64,000 nt of DNA from Pseudooceanicola nitratireducens (lineage in GTDB: Bacteria; Pseudomonadota; Alphaproteobacteria; Rhodobacterales; Rhodobacteraceae). The notes under the pieces are model-generated. The model was not told where the DNA came from, made no database searches, and saw only the letters and a list, made by a program, of their open reading frames with translations. How positions within the stretch are numbered: the stretch's first letter is position 1; each line of letters starts with the position of its first letter. Location of the stretch: positions 442,191-506,190 of the forward strand of contig NZ_FNZG01000002.1 in NCBI RefSeq assembly GCF_900109195.1. The letters run 5' to 3'. Made by a program: the position numbers and the translations under genes. Of the stretch, positions 1 through 30,529 are shown piece by piece.

Positions 1-1498
1 GGTGATCGCGCACCTCGTCAAGCGAGGGGGCTTCCGCCCCTTCGGCCAGGACGGCAACCAGGATCGGGCGTTCATCCCATCTGGGATGTTTGACGCCAAT
101 CGCGGCGGCCTGGGCAATGGCGGGATGCGCCATGGCCATGTTTTCCAGGTCGATGGACGAAATCCATTCGCCGCCCGATTTGATCAGGTCCTTGGCGCGG
201 TCCTGGATGGTCATGAAGCCATCGGTGTCGATCGAGGCCACGTCGCCGGTGCCAAACCAGCCCTCGGCGTCCAGCGCCTTGGCGGTGGCTTCCTCGTTGC
301 GGAAATAGCCCGAGACGATGGTGTTGCCGCGCACGAACAATTCGCCCACGGCCTTGCCGTCATGGGGCTGGCGGTTGCCGTCCTCGTCAACGATCTTCAG
401 TTCCACACCAAAGCAGCGGCGGCCCTGTTTCGACTTGTAGTCGATGCGGGTGTCGAAGGGTTCGTCGTCCATCCACTTGGGCATGATGCCATGGGTGCCA
501 ACGGGGGACATTTCGGTCATGCCCCAGGCGTGGCCCACGCAGACGTCCATCTTTTCAAATGCTTCGATCATGGAGCGCGGCGCGGCGGATCCGCCGATGA
601 CGACGTCTCCGAAGCCCTCGGGCTTGCGGCCCTGCTTCTTGATCTCGCCCAGAAGGCCCTGCCAGATGGTCGGAACGCCCCAGGCCGAGAAGACCTTTTC
701 CTGGTCCATCAGCTTGAAAAGGCTGGGGCCGTCCATCGCCGGCCCGGGCATCACCATGTTCATGCCGACCAGCAGCGAGGCATAGGGCAGGCCCCAGGCG
801 TTGACGTGGAACAGCGGCACGACCGGCAGGACAGACCGGCCTTCGCCGAAAGTCGTGGACTGCATCACCGCCATCATCATCGCATGCAGCGTGGTCGAGC
901 GGTGCGTGTACAGAGCACCCTTGGGATTGCCGGTGGTGCCCGAGGTGTAGCAAAGCCCGCAGGCGGTATCTTCCGCGAACTGGGGCCATTCGATCTCGGT
1001 CGGCTGGCCTTCCAGCAGCTCTTCGTAGCAGAGCGCGCCGAAGGAATTGTCGGGCATATGCGCCCGGTCGGTCATGATGACGTAAGCCAGGTCTTTCGGC
1101 AGGTGATCCTTCACCGCCTCGATGATCGGAACAAAGCTGGTGTCGAGGAACAGGACCTTATCCTCGGCATGGTTCACGATATAGATGAACTGTTCGGCCG
1201 ACAGGCGCGGGTTGATCGTGTGGCAGACGGCCCCGATCCCCGAAATGGCGTAGTACAGCTCCATGTGGCGGTAGCCGTTCCAGGCCAGCGTCGCGACCCG
1301 GTCGCCCAGTTCCACGCCCAGTTTCGATTGCAGGGCATGGGCCAGCTGCACCGTGCGGTCGCGAAATTCGACATAGGTTTCGCGGTGAATGTCACCCTCG
1401 GTTCGGACCGAGACGATTTCGGCACGCGGATAAGCGCCCGCGCCGAATTCCAATATTTCCGACACCAGCAAAGGCTGGTGCATCATCATGCCTTTCAT
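1..1498 (-). CDS. Acyl-CoA synthetase (AMP-forming), DmdB/medium-long-chain type, 3' end cut by window
   Basis: Activates a carboxylic acid to its acyl-CoA with ATP in the cytoplasm. About 499 codons are visible. The start at 1498 gives [19 protein letters not shown] and is preceded by GGGAGGAA at a good distance. The ATP/AMP signature [11 protein letters not shown] lies near residue 185, followed by WGMTEMSP (adenylation loop), the FGTGDV-like [11 protein letters not shown], and the hinge [13 protein letters not shown]. The C-terminal lid with the catalytic lysine lies outside the window. The protein looks like the DmdB/long-chain fatty acid ligase group of roseobacters; the actual substrate cannot be read. 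It is transcribed divergently from the quinone oxidoreductase at 1741, and the shared gap carries two IclR-like palindromes. Confidence 0.9.
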
Positions 1499-1582
1499 GG
1501 CAATTCCTCCCGTTTTATGGCACGAACTTAACGAGCAAGCCGCGTTGGTGGAAGGAAATTCCGCGAGAGAAACGTTGCGTCC

Positions 1583-1619
1583 TTCCGTCCTGCGGAATGC
1601 CATTTTTCGCATCGCGGAA
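1583..1619. promoter_or_regulatory. Paired palindromes TTCCG-N5-CGGAA, putative IclR operator (site A)
   Basis: Two 15-bp inverted repeats lie in the divergent gap between the acyl-CoA ligase (start 1498) and the quinone oxidoreductase (start 1741). TTCCGTCCTGCGGAA is at 1583-1597 and TTTCGCATCGCGGAA at 1605-1619, offset by 22 bp, about two helical turns. The same motif occurs in the other regulatory gaps of this cluster (3635, 6224, 7861), next to an IclR gene. IclR-family regulators commonly bind as paired dimers to such elements. Assignment to the local IclR is inference. Confidence 0.6.
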
Positions 1620-1740
1620 CGCCGCCGGGGCAGGGGCGAAAAATCTGTGAAACCAGCTTGAATTCAATGGTATAGCGCCGAGAGCTTGGTACAAGAAAAG
1701 CAAGGCTGCGCCATGTCGGCACAGCATCAGGGAGGTTGAG

Positions 1741-2706
1741 ATGAAAGCAATTGTCTGTGAGGAATTCGGACCGCTGGAGGAGCTGCAGTTCAAGGAGGTC
1801 GCGGACCCCACGCCGGGCAAGGGCCAGGTGCTGATCCGCACCCAGGCGGCCGGGGTAAACTACCCCGACGGGCTGACCGTCCAGGGCCTGTACCAGGTGA
1901 AACCGGAGCGTCCCTTTACACCGGGCAGCGAAGTCGCGGGCGAGATCGTGGCCCTGGGCGAAGGCGTCAACCGGTTCAGCGTTGGTGACCGGGTCGTGAC
2001 CTATTGCTCGGGCGGGTATGCCGAACTGGCCGTGGCGAGCGAGGCGACCTGCTTTGCCCTGCCCGAGGGCATGGACGCGGCGGATGCCTGCGCGATGATC
2101 ATCGCCTGGGGGACCTCTCATCACGCGCTGAAGCAGCGGGCCAACATCCAGCCGGGCGAGACGCTGGTCGTTTTCGGTGCGGCGGGGGCAACGGGCACGG
2201 CGGCTATCCAGATCGGCAAGGTCATGGGCGCAACCGTCATCGCGGTCTGTTCCTCGGACGCGAAGAAGCAGATCGCGAAAGAGCAGGGGGCGGATCACGT
2301 CATCGGCTATGACAACCTCAAGGACGAGGTGAAGGCCCTGACCGGCGGCAAGGGCGCGGATGTGGTTTACGATTCCGTGGGCGGCGATGCCTTCAAGGCG
2401 GCATCGCGTTTCATGGCCCCGGACGGGCGGCTGCTGATCATCGGTTTCGCCAGCGGTGAGATCCCGCAGCTGCCGGTGAACCTGACGCTGGTGAAGGAAT
2501 ATTCGGTCGTGGGCGTTTTCTGGGGCAACTGGACCCGGCGCGATCCGGCCGCCTACCTGGCGAACATGAAGGAACTGTTCGGCTGGTACACCGACGGCAA
2601 GATCAAGCCGCTGATCGAGGGACGCTATCCGCTGGCGGATGCGGCGAAGGTGCTGGACCGGGTGATGAACCGCGGTGCGGTTGGCAAGATCGCCCTGGTG
2701 CCCTGA
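1741..2706 (+). CDS. NADPH:quinone oxidoreductase family protein (zinc-independent MDR)
   Basis: A 321-residue medium-chain reductase that would reduce a quinone or an activated enone/enoyl substrate with NADPH. The N-terminal GroES-like part contains GVNYPDGLTVQG, with none of the catalytic or structural zinc cysteines of alcohol dehydrogenases. The Rossmann part has the nucleotide loop VFGAAGATGTAAIQIGK near residue 145, then VYDSVGGD, and the typical C-terminus RGAVGKIALV. The start is supported by GGGAGG a few bases upstream. It is divergent from the acyl-CoA ligase and faces the paired palindromes at 1583-1619. In this context it may reduce an unsaturated acyl-CoA rather than a quinone; that is inference. 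Confidence 0.88.
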   Translation: MKAIVCEEFGPLEELQFKEVADPTPGKGQVLIRTQAAGVNYPDGLTVQGLYQVKPERPFTPGSEVAGEIVALGEGVNRFSVGDRVVTYCSGGYAELAVASEATCFALPEGMDAADACAMIIAWGTSHHALKQRANIQPGETLVVFGAAGATGTAAIQIGKVMGATVIAVCSSDAKKQIAKEQGADHVIGYDNLKDEVKALTGGKGADVVYDSVGGDAFKAASRFMAPDGRLLIIGFASGEIPQLPVNLTLVKEYSVVGVFWGNWTRRDPAAYLANMKELFGWYTDGKIKPLIEGRYPLADAAKVLDRVMNRGAVGKIALVP

Positions 2707-2784
2707 TCTGAGATTTCGCGGGGGCGCTTGTCGCGCCCTCGCGTGCGCGCCTCGCCTGTCGGGGCGGCGCGAACCGGTCGGGCG

Positions 2785-3609
2785 TCAATAGCCGACGCGG
2801 TTCACCATATGCACCAGTTCCACAAGCTGCGGACCAAGGTCGTCTTCCAGCCGTTCCTTGGGCAGGGCAAAGCTGTAGCCGCCCAGGTTGAAGGCCAGCA
2901 TCGGCGTGTCGGGCTGCTGGCTGCGATAGGGCACGGCCACCGCGTTCACATCGCGCTGCCAGCCGCCAACCATGGTGTAGAAGCCCTTTTTCAGGACCTG
3001 TTCACGGGCATCGTCCAGACCGTCGAGGATTTCGTTCAACTTGTCGGGGTCATAGCGGGTGCGGATGCGGTCGATGATTTCGCTGCGCTCGGCCTCATCC
3101 GTGCCGGCGATATAGGCCTGACCGATCGCCGAGCGGGCCAGCGAGATCCGCGAACCAACCGAAAGCTGGAGGGAGATCACGCCCTTGGACCGGGCCGCCG
3201 CGAGGTAGGTCAACGACATGTCGTCGCGGCCGCCCAGGGCAACCAGCACGCCGTCGCCGGCCTTGTCGGCCAGTTCCTGCATGTAGACCTGCGCGGTTTC
3301 GCGGACCTGCATGCCGGCCAGGCAGGCATAGCCAAGCGACAGAACGGGCACACCCATACGGTAGCGTCCGGTGCCGTCGTCATAGACCAGGTAGCCGGAT
3401 TTCAGCAGGGTGAAGGTCAGGCGGGAGACCGTGGAATTGGGCAGGCCGGTGCGGTCGGCCAGCTCGGAATTGCCCAGGCCGGCCTTGTCGGATGGTCGGA
3501 AGGCCCGCAGGATTTCAAGCCCCCGATGCAGGGCGGTTACGAATTGGCGATCGCTGTCGGGCTTGTCTGCCACGTCGACCGCATTGTCCGTCGTTCTCTT
3601 GCGCACCAT
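2785..3609 (-). CDS. IclR-family transcriptional regulator
   Basis: A 274-residue regulator. An N-terminal winged helix (FVTALHRGLEILRAF through LPNSTVSRLTFTLLKSGYL, residues about 22-75) is followed by the IclR ligand-binding domain (from about residue 95), which contains GQAYIAG and AVAVPYRS, conserved in the family. The start ATG has GGAG six bases upstream. It is the last gene of a minus-strand run SDR - acyl-CoA ligase - iclR, with 67 bases separating it from the ligase. That gap contains its own palindromic site (3635), so it is probably autoregulated and also made from an internal promoter. It is the obvious candidate to bind the palindromes found across the cluster; the ligand is unknown, probably an acyl or aromatic acid. 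Confidence 0.93.
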   Translation of the reverse strand: MVRKRTTDNAVDVADKPDSDRQFVTALHRGLEILRAFRPSDKAGLGNSELADRTGLPNSTVSRLTFTLLKSGYLVYDDGTGRYRMGVPVLSLGYACLAGMQVRETAQVYMQELADKAGDGVLVALGGRDDMSLTYLAAARSKGVISLQLSVGSRISLARSAIGQAYIAGTDEAERSEIIDRIRTRYDPDKLNEILDGLDDAREQVLKKGFYTMVGGWQRDVNAVAVPYRSQQPDTPMLAFNLGGYSFALPKERLEDDLGPQLVELVHMVNRVGY

Positions 3610-3634
3610 AAATCTCCGCCTTCGAAACTTACAC

Positions 3635-3668
3635 TTCCGCTATGCGAAATTTGTTCCGCAGTGCCAAC
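3635..3668. promoter_or_regulatory. Putative IclR operator pair (site B) in front of iclR
   Basis: TTCCGCTATGCGAAA at 3635-3649 has nine of ten arm bases of TTCCG-N5-CGGAA. A weaker copy, TTCCGCAGTGCCAAC, starts 19 bp later at 3654. Its reverse complement, TTTCGCATAGCGGAA, differs by only one base from the second copy at site A (1605). It lies between the ligase stop (3677) and the IclR start (3609), which suggests autoregulation. Confidence 0.55.
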
Positions 3669-3676
3669 CCCTACGT

Positions 3677-5377
3677 TCAGGTAAGTTGCGCTGCGTGATC
3701 TTTTTCCCGCTCTGCCAGTTCCTTCCACATTACCTTGCCCGAACCCGATTTCGGAAGCGTGTCCACGAAGACCACGCTGCGAGGGCATTTGTAGGCCGCC
3801 ATCGTGTCATGGCACCAGGCGATCACATCGGCCTCGGTCGGGGTCGCGCCCGCGCGGGGCACCACGTAGGCCTTGACCGTTTCGCCGCGGCGCGGATCGG
3901 GGGCCCCGATCACGCAGGCCTCGACGATATCGGGGTGGCGGTGCATCAGCGCTTCGACCTCGGCCGGCCAGACCTTGAAACCGCTGGCGTTGATCATCCG
4001 CTTCACCCGGTCGGTCATGAAGAAATACCCGCCGTCGTCATAATAGCCGATATCGCCGGTGCGGAAGAACCGCTTGCCTTCGATCTCGATAAAGACGGCG
4101 TCGGTGGCGTCCTGGTTGCGCCAGTAGCCGTCGAAGATCTGCGGCCCGTGGGTCACGATTTCACCGGCTTCGTTCGGGCCCAGTTCGGCCCCGGTTTCCA
4201 GGTCGAGGATCCGGCAGTCCACGTCGAAGATCGGAATGCCGAGGCATTGCATCTTGGGCGCATCCGGCGGGTTGATATGGGTCGCGGCCATGGCTTCGGA
4301 CAGGCCGTAGCCTTCGATAAACTCAAGCCCGGTGACCTGTTTCAGCTTGTCGGCCACGGCTTCGGGCATGGCGGCCCCGCCGCCGCCCATGGAGGTCAGC
4401 GAGGACAGGTCGTAGCTGGCGAAATTGGGCGCGTTCAGGATGTCGATCACCATGGTGGTGATGGACCGGAACATGGTCACCCTGTGGCGTTCGATCAGGC
4501 GGGCGGCGGTGTCGCGGTCCCATCTGGTCATCAGCACGATGCTGGTGCCCGCGGCCAGCGGCGCGTTCATCGAATTCTGCATGCCGGTGACATGGAAGAA
4601 GGGCAGCACCGCCAGAAGGGTTTCGTCCTCGGTGAAGGTGCTCCAGTGGATATAGGCCTGGATCGTCGCCTGGACCGAGCGGTGGCGATGCGTGCAGCCC
4701 TTGGGATTGCCCGTGGTGCCGGACGAATAGGGAATCACCGCCAGGTCGTCGGACCCGGCCAGATGCGGCCCGGGCGCGGGGGCCTCGGTCAGGGCGTCGC
4801 GCCAGCGGGTCACGCCCGCGCCACCGACGCCCGCGCCACCGACGCCCGCGCCACCAACGTCGGTGTCCGACAGGGTGGCCAGGGCCTCGGGCAGGCGGAT
4901 GTCGCTGCCGGGGTCGGCCATGTCGGCATAGGCCCCGGCCAGGATGTGATCCAGGTGGCCCGATCCGATCAGCGGCTGGATATGGTCGACCAGTTCCGAT
5001 CCCGTGATGGCGACGCGGGCGTCGGTATCGGTCGCCAGATGCTCAAGCTCGGCCTCGCGGTTCATCGGGTTCACGGGGATCACGGCGGCATCGGCGCGCA
5101 GGATGGCGTAATAGCCGATGATCCACTGCGGAGAGTTCTGCAGATACAGCAGGACCCGGTCGCCGCGTGTCACGCCGCGGGACTGAAGCCAACCCGCGAC
5201 GCGTTCGACCTGATCCAGAAGCTGGCCATAGGTGATCTGCGCCCCGTAGTAGTGCAGCGCCACCTTGTCAGGCAGGCGCGTGGCGGTGTCGATCAGGTTC
5301 TGAGCCACGGATTGCGCCGGCACCTCAAGGTGATGGGGCAATCCATGGGGCCAGTTCTGGTAGTGCAGGGTCGTCAT
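3677..5377 (-). CDS. Acyl-CoA synthetase (AMP-forming), 566 aa
   Basis: An ANL-superfamily ligase forming an acyl-CoA from acid, ATP and CoA. The signature [16 protein letters not shown] is near residue 215, with YGLSEAMA as the adenylation loop, FFRTGDIGYYDDGG, and the hinge DRVKRMINASGFKVWP. The terminal domain carries the catalytic lysine in LPKSGSGKVMWKEL. It starts 7 bases after the SDR stop (5385), so translation is probably coupled, and iclR follows. A low-complexity stretch of three VGGAG units (residues about 173-188) sits between the N-terminal half and the ATP signature; it is encoded by a perfect in-frame 15-bp tandem repeat and is not a family feature. Substrate unknown. Confidence 0.9.
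   Translation of the reverse strand: MTTLHYQNWPHGLPHHLEVPAQSVAQNLIDTATRLPDKVALHYYGAQITYGQLLDQVERVAGWLQSRGVTRGDRVLLYLQNSPQWIIGYYAILRADAAVIPVNPMNREAELEHLATDTDARVAITGSELVDHIQPLIGSGHLDHILAGAYADMADPGSDIRLPEALATLSDTDVGGAGVGGAGVGGAGVTRWRDALTEAPAPGPHLAGSDDLAVIPYSSGTTGNPKGCTHRHRSVQATIQAYIHWSTFTEDETLLAVLPFFHVTGMQNSMNAPLAAGTSIVLMTRWDRDTAARLIERHRVTMFRSITTMVIDILNAPNFASYDLSSLTSMGGGGAAMPEAVADKLKQVTGLEFIEGYGLSEAMAATHINPPDAPKMQCLGIPIFDVDCRILDLETGAELGPNEAGEIVTHGPQIFDGYWRNQDATDAVFIEIEGKRFFRTGDIGYYDDGGYFFMTDRVKRMINASGFKVWPAEVEALMHRHPDIVEACVIGAPDPRRGETVKAYVVPRAGATPTEADVIAWCHDTMAAYKCPRSVVFVDTLPKSGSGKVMWKELAEREKDHAAQLT
4812..4856. repeat. In-frame 15-bp tandem repeat, three units
   Basis: The unit ACGCCCGCGCCACCG occurs at 4812-4826, 4827-4841 and, with a change in the last base, at 4842-4856. 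On the minus strand it encodes VGGAG repeated inside the acyl-CoA ligase. Because the unit is a multiple of three, copy-number change would alter loop length without a frameshift. Confidence 0.9.
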
Positions 5378-5384
5378 TCGGAGG

Positions 5385-6155
5385 TCAGACTTTCATTCCG
5401 GGTAGGTTCAGAGAGGCGGTGTTGCCGCCGTCGACGGGCAGCGCCTGCCCGGTGATATAAGAGGCGTCGTCGGAGGCGAGGAAGCAGATCGCCGCGGCAA
5501 TCTCCTCGGGGCGGCCATAGCGGCGCAATTCGCAGCGAGAGCCAAGCTTCTCTTCCTTGCCCTTGTCGCGGGCGATGTCGAAGATCGGCTTGGTCATGCC
5601 TGTCTCGATCAGGCCGGGACAGACCGCGTTGACGCGGACGTTGAAACCGCCCAGGTCACAGGCCGCCGTCTGGGTCAGGTTGATGACTCCGGCCTTCGAC
5701 GCGGAATAGGCGTTGCCGCCCGCGCCCGACCGGATGCCGGCAACGGACGCGGTGTTGACGATGGCGCCGCTGCCCTGGTCGCACATGACCCGGCCCGCGT
5801 GCTTGATGAAGTTCGCCACGCCGATCAGGTTCACGCCCAGCACCTTGGGCCAGACCGCCATGTCGTTATCCATGATCGCCTCTTTGGTGCAGGCGATCCC
5901 GGCGTTGTTGGCGACCGCATCGATGCGGCCCCACTTGTCCATGACCGCCTTGACCACGCCTTCGACCTGCGTCTCGTCCGAGACATCGCAGGTCAGGATC
6001 ATGTGATCGCCCTCGGGCAGGCTGCCCTGCAACCCGTCCTCGTTCACGTCAACAAGGCAGACACGTGCCCCTTCTGATGCAAACCGGTTGGCGGTGGCAC
6101 GTCCGATGCCACTGCCGGCCCCGGTCACGATAGCGACCTTGCCTTCAAATCTCAC
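5385..6155 (-). CDS. SDR family NAD(P)-dependent oxidoreductase
   Basis: A classical short-chain dehydrogenase, about 256 residues, oxidising or reducing a hydroxyl/keto group, possibly the 3-hydroxyacyl-CoA step. The cofactor motif TGAGSGIG is near residue 12, with NNAG near 84, catalytic Ser in NTASVAG and YSASK near 155. After TGAGSGIGRATA the sequence CLVDVN, with an acidic residue at the end of beta-2, favours NAD. I prefer the GTG at 6155 because GGGAGGA sits 7 bases before it; an ATG five codons upstream at 6170 overlaps that Shine-Dalgarno. It is the first gene of the SDR - ligase - iclR operon, with palindromic site C upstream. Confidence 0.9.
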   Translation of the reverse strand: MRFEGKVAIVTGAGSGIGRATANRFASEGARVCLVDVNEDGLQGSLPEGDHMILTCDVSDETQVEGVVKAVMDKWGRIDAVANNAGIACTKEAIMDNDMAVWPKVLGVNLIGVANFIKHAGRVMCDQGSGAIVNTASVAGIRSGAGGNAYSASKAGVINLTQTAACDLGGFNVRVNAVCPGLIETGMTKPIFDIARDKGKEEKLGSRCELRRYGRPEEIAAAICFLASDDASYITGQALPVDGGNTASLNLPGMKV

Positions 6156-6223
6156 TATATGTCCTCCCATTTCCGGAAACGATTACACAGGCGGGCGCGG
6201 CAAGCAACTTCTTTGGAATACGT

Positions 6224-6238
6224 TTCCGCAATGCGGAC
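6224..6238. promoter_or_regulatory. Putative IclR operator (site C)
   Basis: TTCCGCAATGCGGAC matches TTCCG-N5-CGGAA at nine of ten arm positions. It overlaps the last base of the stop codon of the upstream ligase (stop at 6238-6240) and lies about 70 bp before the SDR start, so it would control the SDR - ligase - iclR operon. No clear second copy was found, although a TTTCCGGAAA palindrome is present at 6172-6181. Confidence 0.5.
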
Positions 6239-7794
6239 TATGCGTCCTGCTTGGCCCAGTAGGGTTCGCGCAGCTCCCGCTTGAGGATCTTGCCGATCTC
6301 GGACCGGGGCAGCTCGTCCCGGACCTCTACGGCCGACAGGCGCTGCGTCTTGCCCAGCTGGTCGTTGGTCCACTGGCGGATCGCCTCGGGGTCGGCATCC
6401 TTGCGGTTCACGACCACCAGGCCCAGGGGCGTTTCACCCCAGTCGCGCGACGGGATGGCGATCACGGCCACGTCAGAGACGTCGGGGTGCTTGCGCAGCA
6501 CGGCCTCCAGATCGGCGGCATAGATGTTGAACCCGCCCGAGATGATCATGTCCTTCTTGCGGTCCAGCAGGTGCAGGAAGCCGTCATCGTCGAACCGCCC
6601 CATGTCCCCGGTGCGCACGAAGTGGTCGCCATCGGCCGACACCCAGGTCGCTTCGCGGGTCTTCTCGGGGTTGTTGTGATAGCCCGGCATCATCGAGCCC
6701 GAGCGGCCGACGACCTCGCCAAAGCTGCCGGCGGGCAGTTCATTGCCGTCCTCGTCAATGACGCGCATGTCGGCGCCGGGCTGGGGTTTGCCGACGGTGT
6801 CCCACTTGTCGGGATAGGCGGCGCAATCCAGCACGGTGGCCGGTCCGCCTTCGGTCATGCCATAGAATTCCATGACGTTGCCGGGCCAGCGCTTCATGAC
6901 CTGTTCGATCACGATGCCGGGCAGCGGGGCCGAGGTCGACATCTTGTTCTGATAGGAGGACAGGTCGAATTCGTCGAAGCGCGGTTCGTCCATCAGGCGG
7001 GTGTATTGCACGGGCACCAGCATGGCATGGGTCGCGCGGTGCTTTTCGCTGAGTTCAAGGAACTTGACCGTGTTGAAGCGCGACATGCTGACGATGGTCG
7101 CGCCGCGCACCAGGCCCGCGATGGCGGCCACCAGGGTGGTGTTGGAATACAGCGGGGTTGAGATCATCAGCACGCCGTCTTCTTCCAGGCCATACGACGC
7201 CGTCCGCGAAAACTGGCGCGCGCGGAAGCGGTGGTCATGCACGATCCCCTTGGGCGACCCGGTGGTGCCGCTGGAATAGATCATGTCGAACAGGTCGTCC
7301 TGCTGGATCTCGACAGGGTCGATCGCGGGGGCGTCGCCGATCCAGGCCTCGATCTCGGCCAGGTCGACAATCGTCTCGGCCCCCAGTTTCTCGGCGGTTT
7401 CGCGGAACTTCTCGTTGGTGAACAGCAGGGTCGCGCCACAGTCGGCCCGTTCCTTGATCAACGCAGGCTCGGTGGCCGAGAAGGGCAGGGGCACCATGCA
7501 GGCCCCGGCGTAGACGACGCCGGCATACATCGCGACATTGTTGGCCGAGTTTTCGGCCAGCGAGGCAACCATGGATCCGCGACCGATTCCCATGGATTGA
7601 AGCTTGCCGGCGATCCGCGCGACCAGGTTGCCGAAGTCGGCCCAGGTCAGGGTGCCGGTCTCGTCGATGACGCAGGGCTTGTCCCCGAAACGCTTGGCAT
7701 TTTCGATCATGCGCGGGCCGAACGCCACCAGCTCTTCGCCTTCGATAACCTTGGGGGTAAGGCGGTCTACACCGGTCAGCTCTGCCTTGCTCAT
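6238..7794 (-). CDS. Acyl-CoA synthetase (AMP-forming), 518 aa
   Basis: The third AMP-forming ligase of the cluster. The ATP signature YSSGTTGSPKGIVHDH is near residue 172, with YGMTEGGPAT as the adenylation loop, HFVRTGDMGRFDDDG, the hinge DRKKDMIISGGFNIY, and the catalytic lysine in LPRSEIGKILKREL close to the C-terminus. Overall it resembles benzoate/cyclohexanecarboxylate-type or 4-coumarate-like ligases as much as fatty acid ligases, so an aromatic or alicyclic acid is possible. It is divergent from the acyl-CoA dehydrogenase at 7946; the 150-bp gap has palindromic site D. Its stop overlaps palindromic site C of the next operon. Confidence 0.9.
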   Translation of the reverse strand: MSKAELTGVDRLTPKVIEGEELVAFGPRMIENAKRFGDKPCVIDETGTLTWADFGNLVARIAGKLQSMGIGRGSMVASLAENSANNVAMYAGVVYAGACMVPLPFSATEPALIKERADCGATLLFTNEKFRETAEKLGAETIVDLAEIEAWIGDAPAIDPVEIQQDDLFDMIYSSGTTGSPKGIVHDHRFRARQFSRTASYGLEEDGVLMISTPLYSNTTLVAAIAGLVRGATIVSMSRFNTVKFLELSEKHRATHAMLVPVQYTRLMDEPRFDEFDLSSYQNKMSTSAPLPGIVIEQVMKRWPGNVMEFYGMTEGGPATVLDCAAYPDKWDTVGKPQPGADMRVIDEDGNELPAGSFGEVVGRSGSMMPGYHNNPEKTREATWVSADGDHFVRTGDMGRFDDDGFLHLLDRKKDMIISGGFNIYAADLEAVLRKHPDVSDVAVIAIPSRDWGETPLGLVVVNRKDADPEAIRQWTNDQLGKTQRLSAVEVRDELPRSEIGKILKRELREPYWAKQDA

Positions 7795-7860
7795 GATCGT
7801 CTCCTCTGTACTCGATCCGTAGTTGCGCGCATCTTACCGCTCGGAAAGTTGCGGTCAATA

Positions 7861-7895
7861 TTCCGCTTTACGGAATGTTGTTCCGCATGTTGACA
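7861..7895. promoter_or_regulatory. Putative IclR operator pair (site D)
   Basis: TTCCGCTTTACGGAA at 7861-7875 is an exact TTCCG-N5-CGGAA element. A half-conserved copy, TTCCGCATGTTGACA, follows 20 bp later at 7881-7895. It lies in the divergent promoter region between the ligase (start 7794) and the acyl-CoA dehydrogenase (start 7946), so it could control both directions. Confidence 0.6.
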
Positions 7896-7945
7896 TGCCC
7901 GTGAAAGCGGTGTCCATTACCGCCAACGTGGAGGAGGATAATTCA

Positions 7946-9166
7946 ATGTATGACCATTTTCCGATTTCGGATCGCGCCAAGAAGATGCGCGAAACGCTGC
8001 TGAAATTCATGGACGATCACGTCTACCCGGCGGAAAAGACCTATTACGAACAGGTGGCCGAGGGCGACCGCTGGCAGCCCGTTCCGATCATGGAAGAGCT
8101 GAAGGCCAAGGGGCGCGAGTCGGGCCTGTGGAACATGTTCCTGACCCATGAGGCCGGTGGCTACAAGGGCGCGGGCCTGACCCAGCTGGAATATGGTACC
8201 ATGTGCGAAATCATGGGCCGGTCCTCGATCGGGTCGGAACCCTTCAACTGTTCCGCCCCCGATACCGGCAACATGGAAACGATCTTCATGTACGGTACGG
8301 ACGATCACAAGGCCAAGTGGCTGCAGCCGCTGCTGGATGGTGAAATCCGCTCCTGCTTTGCGATGACCGAACCGGCCGTTGCCTCCTCTGACGCGACGAA
8401 CATCGAAACCCGGATCGTGCGTGAAGGCGACGAATACGTGATCAACGGCACCAAGTGGTGGTCCTCGGGCGCGATGGACCCGCGCTGCAAGATCGCGATC
8501 CTGATGGGCAAGACCGACCCGGACGCCGAGACCCACAAGCAGCAGTCGATGATCCTGGTGCCCTTCGACACCCCCGGCGTCGAGGTGATCCGCCCGCTGT
8601 CCGTGATCGGCTACGACCACGCGCCGCACGGCCATGCCGAGGTGAAATACACCAACGTGCGCGTGCCGGTGTCCAACATCCTGCTGGGCGAAGGCCGCGG
8701 TTTCGAAATCGCGCAAGGCCGCCTCGGGCCGGGCCGCATCCACCACGCCATGCGCTCGGTTGGCCAGGCGGAACGTGCGCTGCAGATGATGTGCGAACGC
8801 GGCATGGCCCGCACGGCCTTTGGCAAACGGATCGCCGACATGGGCGTGACCAAGCACTGGATCGCCGAAAGCCGGATGGAAATCGAACAGGCCCGCCTGC
8901 TGGTTCTGCACGCCGCCTATATGATGGACACCGTCGGCAACAAGGTCGCCCGCCGCGAGATCGCGATGATCAAGGTGGTCGCCGCCAACCTGTCGCAGCG
9001 CGTCATCGACCGCGCCATGCAGGTGCACGGGGCCCAGGGCGTCAGCCAGGACACCACGCTGGCCGCGTCCTTTGCCAATGCGCGGACCATGCGCCTGGTG
9101 GACGGCCCCGACGAGGTGCACCGCGAAACCATCGCCAAGCTGGAACTCAAGCAGTACCGGAACTGA
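7946..9166 (+). CDS. Acyl-CoA dehydrogenase family protein
   Basis: A FAD enzyme of 406 residues that introduces the alpha,beta double bond into an acyl-CoA and passes electrons to ETF. It starts [18 protein letters not shown] after GAGGAGG; an in-frame extension upstream to 7823 lacks a ribosome site and covers the operator, so it is rejected. FAD-binding [15 protein letters not shown] lies near residue 140, and [21 protein letters not shown] and the C-terminal [11 protein letters not shown] and [15 protein letters not shown] blocks are intact. The layout and length match the ACAD10/11-like group. It is followed after 4 bases by an SDR, forming a two-gene operon. Confidence 0.93.
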
Positions 9167-9170
9167 GCCA

Positions 9171-9935
9171 ATGACCGACCTGCTCGATCTCAAGGGCAAG
9201 GTCGTTCTCATCACCGGGTCATCGCGCGGCATTGGTCGCGCGATGGCGGAAATGTTCGCAGAGGCGGGCGCGCGCGTCGTCGTCTCCTCGCGCAAACGCG
9301 AGGCCTGCGAACCGGTGGCCGAGGCGATCCGCGCCAAGGGCGGGGAGGCGCTGGTCGTCCCCTGTCACATCGGCAATGCCGATGACCTGCAAAACCTTGT
9401 CGACACCACGATCCGCGAATGGGGCCGCATCGACGTGCTGGTGCCCAATGCCGCGATCAACCCCGTCTACGGTCCGATGCAGGACCTTGATGACGCGGTC
9501 TTCGACAAGATGCTGGTGACCAACGTCCGCACCATCAACACCATGTGCAAGATGGTGCTGCCCGGCATGGCCGAAAACGGCGGCGGCTCGGTCGTCATCA
9601 TTTCTTCCGTGGCGGCGATCAAGGGCTCCGTGACGCTTGGTGCCTATGGGGTGACCAAGGCGGCGGATGCCGCCATAGCCCGGGCGCTTGCGCTGGAATG
9701 GGGCCCGAAGAACATCCGCGTCAACGCCATCGGGCCGGGGCTGATCAAGACCGACTTCGCCCGCGCCCTCTGGGAAGACCCCGAGAGGATCGAGAAGATC
9801 AACTCGGCCAACCCGCTGCGCCGCATGGGCACGGTTGAGGAAATCGCCGGCACCGCGCTCTGGCTGGCCTCGCCCATGTCGGGCTACGTCAACGGCCAGC
9901 TGATCATCGCGGACGGTGGCCAGTCGCTCGCCTGA
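9171..9935 (+). CDS. SDR family oxidoreductase
   Basis: A short-chain dehydrogenase of 254 residues, second gene of the acyl-CoA dehydrogenase operon (4-base spacing). The glycine motif TGSSRGIG is near residue 16; the VVSSRK that follows, with Ser-Arg-Lys, indicates NADPH preference. The catalytic Ser is in IISSVAA and YGVTK provides Tyr and Lys. The usual NNAG is PNAA here (VLVPNAAINP), an uncommon variant. The C-terminus ADGGQSLA is typical. It may act as a 3-hydroxyacyl-CoA dehydrogenase or 3-oxoacyl reductase next to the acyl-CoA dehydrogenase; substrate unknown. Confidence 0.9.
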   Translation: MTDLLDLKGKVVLITGSSRGIGRAMAEMFAEAGARVVVSSRKREACEPVAEAIRAKGGEALVVPCHIGNADDLQNLVDTTIREWGRIDVLVPNAAINPVYGPMQDLDDAVFDKMLVTNVRTINTMCKMVLPGMAENGGGSVVIISSVAAIKGSVTLGAYGVTKAADAAIARALALEWGPKNIRVNAIGPGLIKTDFARALWEDPERIEKINSANPLRRMGTVEEIAGTALWLASPMSGYVNGQLIIADGGQSLA

Positions 9936-20364: not shown

Positions 20365-20379
20365 TTCCATATTGCGGAA
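20365..20379. promoter_or_regulatory. Possible IclR-like palindrome upstream of the MFS gene
   Basis: TTCCATATTGCGGAA matches TTCCG-N5-CGGAA at nine of ten arm positions and lies about 110 bases before the MFS start at 20488. It is a single copy with no partner at 20 bp, in a region otherwise unrelated to the catabolic cluster, so it may be chance. Confidence 0.3.
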
Positions 20380-20487: not shown

Positions 20488-21639
20488 ATGCGTATCGATC
20501 TGTTCCTGCTGGTGATTGCCTATGTGCTCAGCCAGTTCTTCCGGTCTTTCCTGCCGGTCCTGACCAATGTTCTCGAGACGGACATCGGCGCGGATGCGGC
20601 CGACCTGTCGCTGGCTTCGGGCATGTGGTTTCTGGTCTTTGCCGCCATGCAGATCCCCGTGGGCTGGGCGCTGGATCAGCTGGGGCCGCGACGGACGTCT
20701 GGCTGGCTTCTTCTGATCGGCGGGGGCGGGGGCGCGGCCCTCTTCGCCCTGGCGCAGGCCCCCTGGCAGATCGTCGTCGCCATGGGGCTGATCGGAGTCG
20801 GCTGTTCGCCGGTGCTGATGGCGTCCTACTACATCCTGGCACGGGTCTATCCGGCGGCGATGTTCGCCACTTTCGCGGCGCTGATCATCGCCTTCGGACA
20901 GGCGGGCAACCTGGCGGGATCGCTGCCGCTTGCCCTGGCGGTCGAGCTTCTGGGATGGCGTCTGTCGCTTGGGGTGCTGGCGCTGGCCTCGGTCCTGGTG
21001 GCGCTTCTGCTGCTGCGGCTGGTGATCGACCCGCCGCCGGTCCAGGACGCGCCGCGCGGCAGCCTGCTGGATGTGCTGAAGATCCGCGGGCTGTGGCTGA
21101 TCCTGCCGCTGACCATGGTGAACTACGCCCCCGCCGCCGGCATGCGCGGCATGTGGGCGGGGCCCTTCTTTGCGGAAACCTATGGCGCGGATGCCCGGCT
21201 GATCGGCTATGCCACGCTGATCATGGCGACCGCGATGATCCTGGGCACATTCGTCTATGGCCCGCTGGACCGGATCTTCGGCACGCGGAAGTGGATCAAC
21301 GTGACGGGGGCCACGATCTCGGTCGGGCTGGTGTGCTGGCTGGCCGTCGCGCCGCCTTCGGGGCTGTGGTATGCTGCCGCGCTTTTTGCCGTGATCGGCA
21401 TGGTGCTTAGCAATTATCCCATGCTGATGGCCCATGGCCGCGCCTTCCTGCCGCCGCATCTGGTCGGGCGGGGGGTGACGCTGATGAACCTGTTCTCGAT
21501 CGGCGGGGCAGGGCTGGCGCAGGTCATCACCGGGCCGATCTATGCCGGCGGCGGGTTTGTTCCGGTCTTCCTGTTCTACGCAGGGGCCCAAAGCATCGGG
21601 TTGCTGATCTACCTGATGTCGCGCGACCGGATGGATTGA
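20488..21639 (+). CDS. MFS transporter
   Basis: A 383-residue inner-membrane carrier with roughly 11-12 helices. It starts MRIDLFLLVIAYVLSQFFRS after GGGAGGAGG. The MFS loop 2-3 motif is recognisable as GWALDQLGPRRTSG near residue 60. The segment SYYILARVYPAAMFATFAAL resembles nitrate/sugar-type carriers, but no substrate can be read. It is separated from the ABC operon by 182 bases and from asd by a promoter-containing gap, so it is probably transcribed alone. Confidence 0.85.
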   Translation: MRIDLFLLVIAYVLSQFFRSFLPVLTNVLETDIGADAADLSLASGMWFLVFAAMQIPVGWALDQLGPRRTSGWLLLIGGGGGAALFALAQAPWQIVVAMGLIGVGCSPVLMASYYILARVYPAAMFATFAALIIAFGQAGNLAGSLPLALAVELLGWRLSLGVLALASVLVALLLLRLVIDPPPVQDAPRGSLLDVLKIRGLWLILPLTMVNYAPAAGMRGMWAGPFFAETYGADARLIGYATLIMATAMILGTFVYGPLDRIFGTRKWINVTGATISVGLVCWLAVAPPSGLWYAAALFAVIGMVLSNYPMLMAHGRAFLPPHLVGRGVTLMNLFSIGGAGLAQVITGPIYAGGGFVPVFLFYAGAQSIGLLIYLMSRDRMD

Positions 21640-29246: not shown

Positions 29247-29281
29247 ATCCGCCATGCGGAAGCTTCTTCCACATCTCTTGA
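29247..29281. promoter_or_regulatory. Putative IclR operator upstream of the thiolase (site E)
   Basis: ATCCGCCATGCGGAA at 29247-29261 matches TTCCG-N5-CGGAA at nine of ten arm bases. TTCCACATCTCTTGA starts 20 bp later at 29267, the same two-turn spacing and degeneracy as seen at sites B and D. It lies between the DUF2794 start (29191) and the pcaF-like start (29336). Confidence 0.45.
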
Positions 29282-29292
29282 CCGCGCGGTCA
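29279..29292. promoter_or_regulatory. Perfect 14-bp palindrome TGACCGCGCGGTCA
   Basis: Located 43 bases before the thiolase start, this exact palindrome has the size and symmetry of a TetR-family operator. It could overlap the transcription start. The binding protein is not identifiable from the window; the TetR gene at 53355 is far away and no link can be shown. Confidence 0.5.
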
Positions 29293-29335: not shown

Positions 29336-30529
29336 ATGACCGAAGCTTTCCTGTGCGATGGCCTGAGAACCCCGATCGGACGCTACGGCGGGGCCCTGTC
29401 CTCGGTGCGTCCCGATGACATGCTGGCCCAGGTGATGCGCGACCTGGCCGCGCGCAACCCCGGCATCAAGGTCGACGAGGTCATGATGGGCTGCGCCAAC
29501 CAGGCGGGCGAGGACAACCGCAACGTCGCGCGCATGGCCGCACTTCTGTCGGGGATCGGCGAAGACGTGCCGGGCATGACGATCAACCGTCTCTGCGGCT
29601 CGGGCCTGGATGCCGTGGGCACCGCCGCGCGCGCCGTGAAGGCGGGCGAGGTCGAGCTGGTGATCGCGGGCGGTGTGGAATCCATGTCGCGCGCGCCGCT
29701 GGTGATGCCCAAGGCGGACAGCGCCTTTTCCCGCAAGGCCGAGATCTACGACACCACCATCGGCTGGCGCTTCGTGAACAAGGCAATGCACAAGCATTTC
29801 GGCACCCATTCCATGCCCGAGACGGCGGAAAACGTGGCCGAGGATTTCAACATCGACCGCGCCTCCCAGGATGCCTTCGCCCTGCGCTCGCAGGAACGCG
29901 CCGCGGCTGCCATCGCTTCGGGCCGTCTGGCAGAAGAAATCACGCCGGTGACCATCCCGCAGCGCAAGGGCGATGCGATCGTGGTCGACACCGACGAACA
30001 CCCCCGCGCCACCACGCTGGAAAAGCTCGGGAAACTGCCGACGCCCTTCCGTGAAAACGGTACGGTGACGGCGGGCAATGCCTCGGGCGTGAACGACGGC
30101 GCCTGCGCGGTCATCGTCGCCTCGGCCGAAGCGGTGAAGAAATACGGCCTGACCCCGCGCGCGCGGATCACGGCCATGGCCACCGCCGGCGTGCCGCCGC
30201 GCATCATGGGCATCGGCCCGGCCCCGGCGACGGAAAAGCTGCTGGCGATGACCGGCACCACCATCGGCGACATCGACCTGATCGAGCTGAACGAAGCCTT
30301 TGCCGCCCAAGGCCTCGCCGTCACCCGCCAACTTGGTCTGCCCGATGATGCGGCACATGTGAACCCGAACGGCGGCGCGATTGCCCTGGGTCACCCTCTT
30401 GGCATGTCCGGTGCGCGCCTGGCGCTGACCGCGGGCCTGTCGATGGGCCACATGGGCGCAAAACGCGCCATCTGTACCATGTGCATCGGCGTCGGCCAGG
30501 GCATCGCCCTGATGCTCGAAGCGGTCTGA
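29336..30529 (+). CDS. pcaF: 3-oxoadipyl-CoA thiolase-like acetyl-CoA acyltransferase
   Basis: A thiolase of 397 residues cleaving a 3-oxoacyl-CoA with CoA. The nucleophile Cys is in NRLCGSGLDAVGTAARA near residue 90, with NPNGGAIALGHPLG near 350 and the second catalytic Cys in TMCIGVGQGIALM near 385. GCANQAGEDNRNVARMAALL, TIGWRFVNKAM and SMPETAENVA are features of the PcaF/PaaJ subgroup rather than PhaA or FadA. That predicts a role in the beta-ketoadipate or phenylacetate pathway, but no other pca or paa gene lies in the window. The promoter carries an IclR-like site and a TetR-like palindrome. Confidence 0.85.
   Translation: MTEAFLCDGLRTPIGRYGGALSSVRPDDMLAQVMRDLAARNPGIKVDEVMMGCANQAGEDNRNVARMAALLSGIGEDVPGMTINRLCGSGLDAVGTAARAVKAGEVELVIAGGVESMSRAPLVMPKADSAFSRKAEIYDTTIGWRFVNKAMHKHFGTHSMPETAENVAEDFNIDRASQDAFALRSQERAAAAIASGRLAEEITPVTIPQRKGDAIVVDTDEHPRATTLEKLGKLPTPFRENGTVTAGNASGVNDGACAVIVASAEAVKKYGLTPRARITAMATAGVPPRIMGIGPAPATEKLLAMTGTTIGDIDLIELNEAFAAQGLAVTRQLGLPDDAAHVNPNGGAIALGHPLGMSGARLALTAGLSMGHMGAKRAICTMCIGVGQGIALMLEAV

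Follow-up and report, generated by a model that had tools for sequence, protein, structure and literature searches.

A repeated 15-bp palindrome in an acyl-CoA gene cluster of Pseudooceanicola nitratireducens, very likely the operator of the neighbouring IclR-type regulator

Group-1 operators of IclR-type regulators that belong to the WTT-11-AAW subgroup follow the consensus WTTYCRYW3RYGRAAW, and a three-box layout has been described for PcaU, PobR and HmgR as well as for 32 predicted groups (Suvorova and Gelfand 2021, PMC8222616). The stretch of Pseudooceanicola nitratireducens DNA analysed here, 64,000 nucleotides of contig NZ_FNZG01000002.1 (positions 442,191 to 506,190; hereafter the window), contains a cluster of acyl-CoA genes with an IclR-type regulator gene, iclR, and a repeated 15-bp palindrome, TTCCG-N5-CGGAA, in the gaps of that cluster. 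Like the WTT-11-AAW operators, as characterised in the sections of PMC8222616 on this subgroup, it is a palindrome of 15–17 bp of the form TTYCRY-N3-RYGRAA with an IclR gene nearby, catabolic targets and tandem spacing, which amounts to 19–22 bp in this cluster; unlike there, the proposed targets include etfBA, which those sections do not name. The NagR-like IclR of Rhodococcus sp. TFB has a proposed operator, TTCTGCACAGCAGAA, of equal length, spacing and half-site type, but according to the relevant passages of that report (PMC3937715) it concerns gentisate genes, differs by one base per arm and is proposed only. PcaU and PobR of Acinetobacter share with the window's acad, sdrA and thiolase sites the combination of a palindrome and a third half-site, whereas the half-site is TTCCGC here and GTTCGAT or GTCCGAT there, and the targets are acyl-CoA genes instead of pca or pob genes. 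The operator type is textbook knowledge.

The elements of the cluster are located as follows (acsA, qor, iclR, acsB, sdrA, acsC, acad and sdrB are convenience labels of this analysis):

1583–1597, putative IclR operator in the divergent acsA/qor gap, arms exact
1605–1619, second palindrome of the acsA/qor gap, one mismatch, 22 bp from the copy at 1583
3635–3649, putative operator upstream of iclR, one mismatch, 25 bp before the iclR start
3654–3659, extra half-site TTCCGC adjoining the palindrome at 3635
6224–6238, putative sdrA operator, one mismatch, its final base coinciding with the end of the acsC stop codon
6213–6218, minus strand, third half-site TTCCAA of sdrA, 5 nt downstream of the palindrome at 6224
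7861–7875, putative operator between the divergent acsC and acad promoters, arms exact
7881–7886, plus strand, third half-site TTCCGC of acad, 5 nt past the palindrome

The sites are held by four gaps in front of cluster genes, namely acsA/qor (1499–1740), upstream of iclR (3610–3676), acsC–sdrA (6156–6237) and acsC/acad (7795–7945). The original prediction had assigned the motif to four regulatory gaps and had listed the five palindromes and the partners at 3654 and 7881, and all these copies are found where it placed them; its count of two exact copies (1583 and 7861) and three with one mismatch (1605, 3635 and 6224) is correct, and the pair offsets, given as 19–22 bp, measure 22, 19 and 20 bp. 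No motif precedes acsB or sdrB, whose gaps span only 8 and 4 bp.

The repeated palindrome is non-random and an actual feature of this DNA. With at most one mismatch TTCCG-N5-CGGAA occurs 11 times in the window against 3.3 expected, a number reached in none of 100 dinucleotide shuffles. Exact arms are found at 12 places in the 4.06 Mb of the genome. This density, about 0.2 in 64 kb, bears out the earlier estimate of less than one chance match per 64 kb. The fuller consensus TTCCGCNNNGCGGAA, again with at most one mismatch, is present 51 times in 4.06 Mb versus 23 times for the reversed control, and five times in the 6.4-kb interval of the cluster, where simple arithmetic from the genome count predicts about 0.08. 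A matrix built from 42 sites of relatives only, which keeps out circularity, ranks the five cluster palindromes 1–4 and 6 in the window, and at its threshold six hits are observed against 0.05 per 64 kb in 20 Markov simulations. Rank 5 belongs to a site at 29247, not among the five of the original prediction, which is treated below. Rank 7 is an intergenic TTCCATATTGCGGAA at 20365–20379; the gene at 20488, about 110 bp further on, encodes an MFS transporter. A near match at 290 falls inside acsA.

A G+C-rich chance palindrome devoid of function could be argued from the 51 near matches and from their placement: 17 places outside the cluster were assigned with a home-made gene caller (which, with two window places, covered 19 of the 46 outside the cluster), and nine of them lie inside genes and eight do not, one of the latter on contig C13, where the caller missed genes. 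The Markov expectation at the matrix threshold and the gap-specific conservation at constant distances over 22 genomes, however, make such an explanation hardly conceivable.

This conservation was examined in the window and 21 relatives, with a site defined as at least 10 of the 12 arm bases. Of the 21 relatives from the same genus (Pseudooceanicola group), 18 carry an iclR orthologue, and one further genus (G026) has one at 63%. Two further named genomes outside this set entered via the locus search. Among the loci of the 13 named relatives, nine belong to Pseudooceanicola and three to Primorskyibacter, Maritimibacter and Thalassovita (one each), the last being a distant match. The motif recurs in the orthologous clusters: a site is found upstream of acad in 19/19 genomes (0.2 expected) and upstream of acsC in every one of 16 valid rows. 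It is also found in 16 of 19 acsA/qor gaps and upstream of 13 of 20 sdrA genes, the expected number being 0.1 to 0.6 per gap class. The acsC count omits L051, a truncated contig with a meaningless 10.8-kb "gap" (17 with it), and the sdrA count includes L053 and L054, where sdrA overlaps acsC (n=18 without them). Expectations for the orthologous gaps and for the etfB, thiolase and homologue counts below derive from composition-only shuffles; a dinucleotide null run for acad, acsA, sdrA and iclR agrees, giving for the relatives alone 18/18 versus 0.19 at acad, 15/18 versus 0.36 at acsA, 9/19 versus 0.14 at sdrA (within 90 bp) and 5/21 versus 0.12 at iclR. All seven sdrA genes without a site are no more than 31 bp away from the upstream acsC, so a promoter of their own would be unneeded, and four of the 13 sdrA sites (L055, L062, L066 and L069) lie in a gap common to sdrA and acad, since these loci have no acsC. 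Eight ACAD loci of 41–59% identity have no IclR as a neighbour; upstream of their acad genes, a site of at least 10 is lacking in seven and present at -191 in the eighth; three of the eight come from G026, whose 63% IclR lies elsewhere.

The column counts of the 42 relatives' sites conform to the WTT-11-AAW consensus as stated in the subgroup sections of PMC8222616; the flanking W is A or T in 33/42 sites on the left and 29/42 on the right, and the flanks are therefore weak. We infer that the IclR-type regulator encoded next to it very likely binds the palindrome. The predicted protein carries both IclR domains above their cut-offs (PF09339, 55.3 bits; PF01614, 50.8 bits), which places it in the IclR family, and a stretch containing the recognition helix, TGLPNSTVSRLT, is identical in all 22 orthologue rows. 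Its best NCBIfam model is TIGR02431 pcaR_pcaU, though at 98.9 bits far below the cut-off of 284.75, and membership of the curated PcaR/PcaU/PobR subfamily was rejected on this basis. The local IclR had already been named as ligand in the original prediction, and this assignment is well supported by comparative evidence, namely the motif class, the conservation in orthologous gaps and an etfB site that tracks the presence of iclR (see below). Three observations speak against a regulator of another family reading the palindrome with IclR as a bystander: the arms match the consensus of IclR group 1 at each position, iclR is the sole regulator gene revealed by domain search among the eight cluster genes, and the etfB site follows iclR. 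A TetR gene adjoining one remote site (C16:256258) might be cited in favour of such a regulator, which we nevertheless regard as very unlikely.

The promoter elements that accompany the acsC/acad operator, all assigned by eye, are:

7890–7895, plus strand, proposed acad -35 box TTGACA
7853–7858, minus strand, proposed acsC -35 box TTGACC, 2 bp from the operator
7836–7831, minus strand, -10-like TAAGAT of acsC, 16 bp past the -35 box

The acad layout is constant and consists of the palindrome, 5 nt, the third half-site, 2–3 nt and the -35 box TTGAC, with 66–72 bp between palindrome end and start codon. In an alignment of 19 acad gaps on the palindrome, arms and third half-site appear as islands of conservation; the half-site reads TTCCGCA in 13/19 rows, with near variants in the others, and is followed in all 19 by TTGAC, whose position varies by one base between genomes. 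The spacing between palindrome and TTCC is precisely 5 nt in 17/18 acad relatives and 6/9 sdrA relatives. At sdrA the order palindrome, 5 nt, half-site and TTGA is kept in 8/10 rows, the exceptions being the window, with TTGCTT at the TTGA position, and L055, which has neither half-site nor TTGA. A third box in alternating direction and at group-2 spacing is found at acad and sdrA and not at acsA; the 5 nt observed fit the 5–6 nt between GRAA and TTYC specified for that arrangement in the corresponding part of PMC8222616. Pairs two helical turns apart had been taken to indicate a tetramer. With a tandem site defined as a second palindrome 18–22 nt away, a 22-bp pair is seen in 5/16 site-bearing acsA/qor gaps, in 7/19 acad gaps the second palindrome is 28 bp off, and the most frequent arrangement at acad and sdrA is a palindrome with a single half-site 5 nt on, so the tetramer reading is partly supported and the two-turn tetramer is probably no general rule.

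The sites at acad, sdrA and, as described below, the thiolase and etfB genes lie upstream of the proposed -35 box, an activator-like placement. PcaU and PobR sites likewise occupy activator-like positions, those of PcaU upstream of the -35 box. The IclR might alternatively be a repressor that blocks the acsC and acad promoters at their -35 boxes until an acyl-CoA inducer releases it. In favour of this are the short distance at acsC, where TTGAC starts 2 bp from the palindrome in 13/16 rows (4 bp in two, missing in one), and extra boxes over the acsC -10 region in several relatives; moreover, the IclR family comprises repressors, activators and dual regulators, as noted in the overview part of PMC8222616. 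Because the acad, sdrA and thiolase sites precede the -35 box and the etfB site is further upstream still, we consider repression possible but rather doubtful, and an inducer-dependent activator the most likely mode. Where a site is present near the iclR start, it suggests negative autoregulation.

Outside the cluster, the window contains a further site together with its putative target:

29247–29261, sixth putative operator ATCCGCCATGCGGAA, intergenic, with a third half-site TTCCAC at 29267–29272 and TTGACC at 29278–29283
29336–30529, plus strand, thiolase gene of the 3-oxoadipyl-CoA thiolase type (TIGR02430, pcaF, 647 bits, cut-off 597), proposed regulon member

Located 21 kb from the cluster, they repeat the order of palindrome, 5 nt, half-site and TTGACC, which is kept at -72 to -75 in five close orthologues, own included; across all 26 thiolase matches, nine have a site of 10 anywhere within 300 bp. 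About 310 kb from the cluster, an intergenic site of 11/12 precedes etfB, with etfA next (L282:9586-11431, G000:C18; G000 is the own genome). At -132 to -166 a site occurs in 17/17 iclR-bearing genomes of the genus with the usual etfB promoter (own included; "usual" as judged by eye). G012, devoid of orthologues of both iclR and acad, retains a similar etfB promoter without a site (best 8/12). In 29 genomes of other genera without a full-length orthologue, one etfB site of 10 was found at an unrelated position (-277; 0.56 expected), although inspection by eye often reveals the core promoter; this comparison covered 30 of the 37 family genomes besides G026, of which 29 matched, with G042, G049, G051, G053, G054, G056 and G058 omitted, and G029 has an HTH-only fragment, 59% alike. 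Overall 17 of 23 etfB matches have a site, the misses being G012, G020, G026, an aberrant G003 copy and second copies in G002 and G009; the count leaves out L204, whose contig starts inside the gene (18/24 with it), and further second copies. The etfB copies of G003 are aberrant or partial only, and G018 gave no match. In several relatives the etfBA promoter shows an additional box of the CGGAA type, located some 20 bp downstream.

Other intergenic sites of 11/12 in the own genome are situated in the gap that separates an acyl-CoA ligase gene from a CoA-transferase gene, in the gap that separates a TetR gene from a DctP gene, and ahead of a different CoA-transferase operon. The CoA-transferase next to the ligase has a site in 7/23 matches, always at -106 to -112, and nine of the 16 site-less matches adjoin pcaF-type thiolase matches and hence look like pca clusters; the other operon has a site in 12/22 (0.4 expected). 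The regulon had been predicted to be self-contained. This is ruled out by the sites before etfBA and at these three loci, the motif being present also at the thiolase gene and the promoter of an IclR paralogue, and a distributed acyl-CoA regulon with the local IclR as ligand is likely on these comparative grounds. A second acyl-CoA cluster (L281, G000:C16:243000-262900) has two intergenic operator-like sites of 11/12 and encodes two acyl-CoA dehydrogenases, an acyl-CoA ligase, CoA-transferase subunits, a TetR regulator and a TRAP-type binding protein; no IclR homologue was found in this 19.9-kb stretch. Further sites are seen before a peptide-binding protein gene (L146), near an ATP synthase delta gene (L148) and at a carboxyltransferase locus (L153).

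The paralogue resides on a small contig, which at a guess is a plasmid:

G000:C13:19194-19946, IclR paralogue, 46% identity to the local IclR

Its neighbours, which include short-chain acyl-CoA genes, are an aldehyde dehydrogenase, a FadB-like protein, an acyl-CoA dehydrogenase, an Fe-alcohol dehydrogenase, a CoA-transferase and an AraC-type regulator (L071, C13:10000-29500), and C13 also holds second copies of etfB (C13:28521) and a thiolase gene (C13:30202). The palindrome lies 69 bp upstream (11/12 in the own genome, 12/12 in G002 and G009), in all three genomes within the layout of palindrome, 5 nt, half-site and TTGAC. Such a promoter could mean that the shared operator is chiefly bound by the paralogue, or by another IclR, and not by the local one. 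Within the genus, however, paralogues of 45–46% occur, among the matches listed, in G000, G002 and G009 only, the cluster and etfB sites are kept in genomes without one, and at the seven stronger IclR loci of the own genome (3 kb each) a palindrome of at least 11/12 was detected solely at the local gene and on C13; we hold a main ligand other than the local IclR to be unlikely, although shared binding may occur. Among 34 distinct homologues below 46% identity, eight show a site of 10 or more in the 350 bp upstream; these eight all fall among the 19 above 34%, and the 15 below have none; three of the eight are C13-type paralogues (duplicate loci were removed, L060 at 26% identity was left out, and L129 and L136 gave no row). 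We tentatively propose, with nearly balanced confidence that stays short of even, that the cluster IclR has been promoted within one genus to remote control of etfBA and acyl-CoA genes, and that a paralogue of three genomes shares its operator code, with cross-talk between the regulons.

Motif density over whole genomes is a weak test of the regulator. The 19 iclR-bearing genomes of the genus, own included, have on average 41 matches versus 24 in the control, and 13 other family genera without an orthologue 32 versus 28. An excess is also seen in genomes in which no iclR was found, such as G020 (33 versus 12), and the iclR-bearing G004 shows none (27 versus 31).

In the joint reading that we favour, the palindromes are operators of the local IclR, three-box operators at acad, sdrA and the thiolase gene, the IclR would be an inducer-dependent activator and its regulon would reach beyond the cluster. 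Several observations weigh against it. Two genomes in which no iclR was found have the density excess, G014 (47 versus 28) and G025 of another genus (62 versus 22), and G020, 66% complete and with no iclR orthologue found, has a perfect site at a CoA-transferase gene. G026 possesses the 63% orthologue and yet no etfB site, and loss of that site within the genus is documented by one genome, G012. Just five of the 11 close thiolase orthologues keep the site at -72 to -75, the +5 third box is absent from the acsA sites of all 15 relatives, and the iclR gap has a site in just 6/22 genomes, which rules out general autoregulation as a conserved feature. A paralogue sharing the operator exists in the own genome, G002 and G009; the relatives are non-independent samples, L056/L057 and L064/L065 being near twins; and the mode of action is read from site position alone. 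With these points taken into account, we still consider the joint reading to be probable with good confidence.

The first 10 kb of the window comprise the cluster genes from acsA through sdrB:

2–1498, minus strand, acsA, AMP-forming acyl-CoA ligase cut by the window edge (PF00501, 239 bits)
1741–2706, plus strand, qor, zinc-type NAD(P)H:quinone oxidoreductase-like protein (PF00107, PF08240)
2785–3609, minus strand, iclR, regulator of 274 aa with HTH_IclR and IclR_C domains (PF09339, PF01614), proposed ligand of the operators
3677–5377, minus strand, acsB, acyl-CoA ligase (PF00501; NF006181 over cut-off)
5385–6155, minus strand, sdrA, short-chain dehydrogenase (PF13561)
6238–7794, minus strand, acsC, acyl-CoA ligase (PF00501)
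7946–9166, plus strand, acad, acyl-CoA dehydrogenase of the ACAD11 type (PF00441)
9171–9935, plus strand, sdrB, short-chain dehydrogenase in one operon with acad (4-bp gap; PF13561)

The best NCBIfam model of acsA is 3-(methylthio)propionyl-CoA ligase, with a score under the cut-off of that model, and the closest relatives of acad among solved structures are ACAD11 proteins (E 1.9e-135). ACAD11-type dehydrogenases serve in the catabolism of 4-hydroxy acids; no kinase was found among the eight cluster genes examined. Inside acsB, at 4814–4859, a 15-bp GCGCCACCGACGCCC-like unit seen by eye occurs three times. The genes fbp and rpe come next after sdrB, and upstream of fbp a site is present in 4/14 cases (0.19 expected), within G+C-rich palindromes. 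The open-access literature searched, including the combination of Pseudooceanicola and IclR, yielded no paper on this regulator.

From the arrangement of the sites we propose the following scenario. One IclR dimer would occupy the palindrome, and the third half-site, adjacent to the -35 box, would be taken by an additional subunit. The inducer is most naturally supposed to be an acyl-CoA or an acid from the pathway; once it is bound, the IclR would most probably activate acad-sdrB, acsC, sdrA and acsA, and perhaps qor as well. Where a genome has a site at the iclR start, as a few do, the regulator would also damp its own gene. Acting in trans on the window thiolase gene and on the remote etfBA, it would switch activation, dehydrogenation, thiolysis and electron transfer together. 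Marine Rhodobacterales have an acyl-CoA pathway with a dehydrogenase of the ACAD11 type that is still uncharacterised; for it the analysis puts forward a concrete regulon and operator, both testable, and adds the shared electron carrier genes etfBA to the regulon. If true, the operator at a conserved etfBA promoter in the genus of the regulator, nearly absent from the 29 other-genus genomes, would clearly exemplify the expansion of a regulon, and the paralogue with the same operator makes cross-talk between the two regulators testable.

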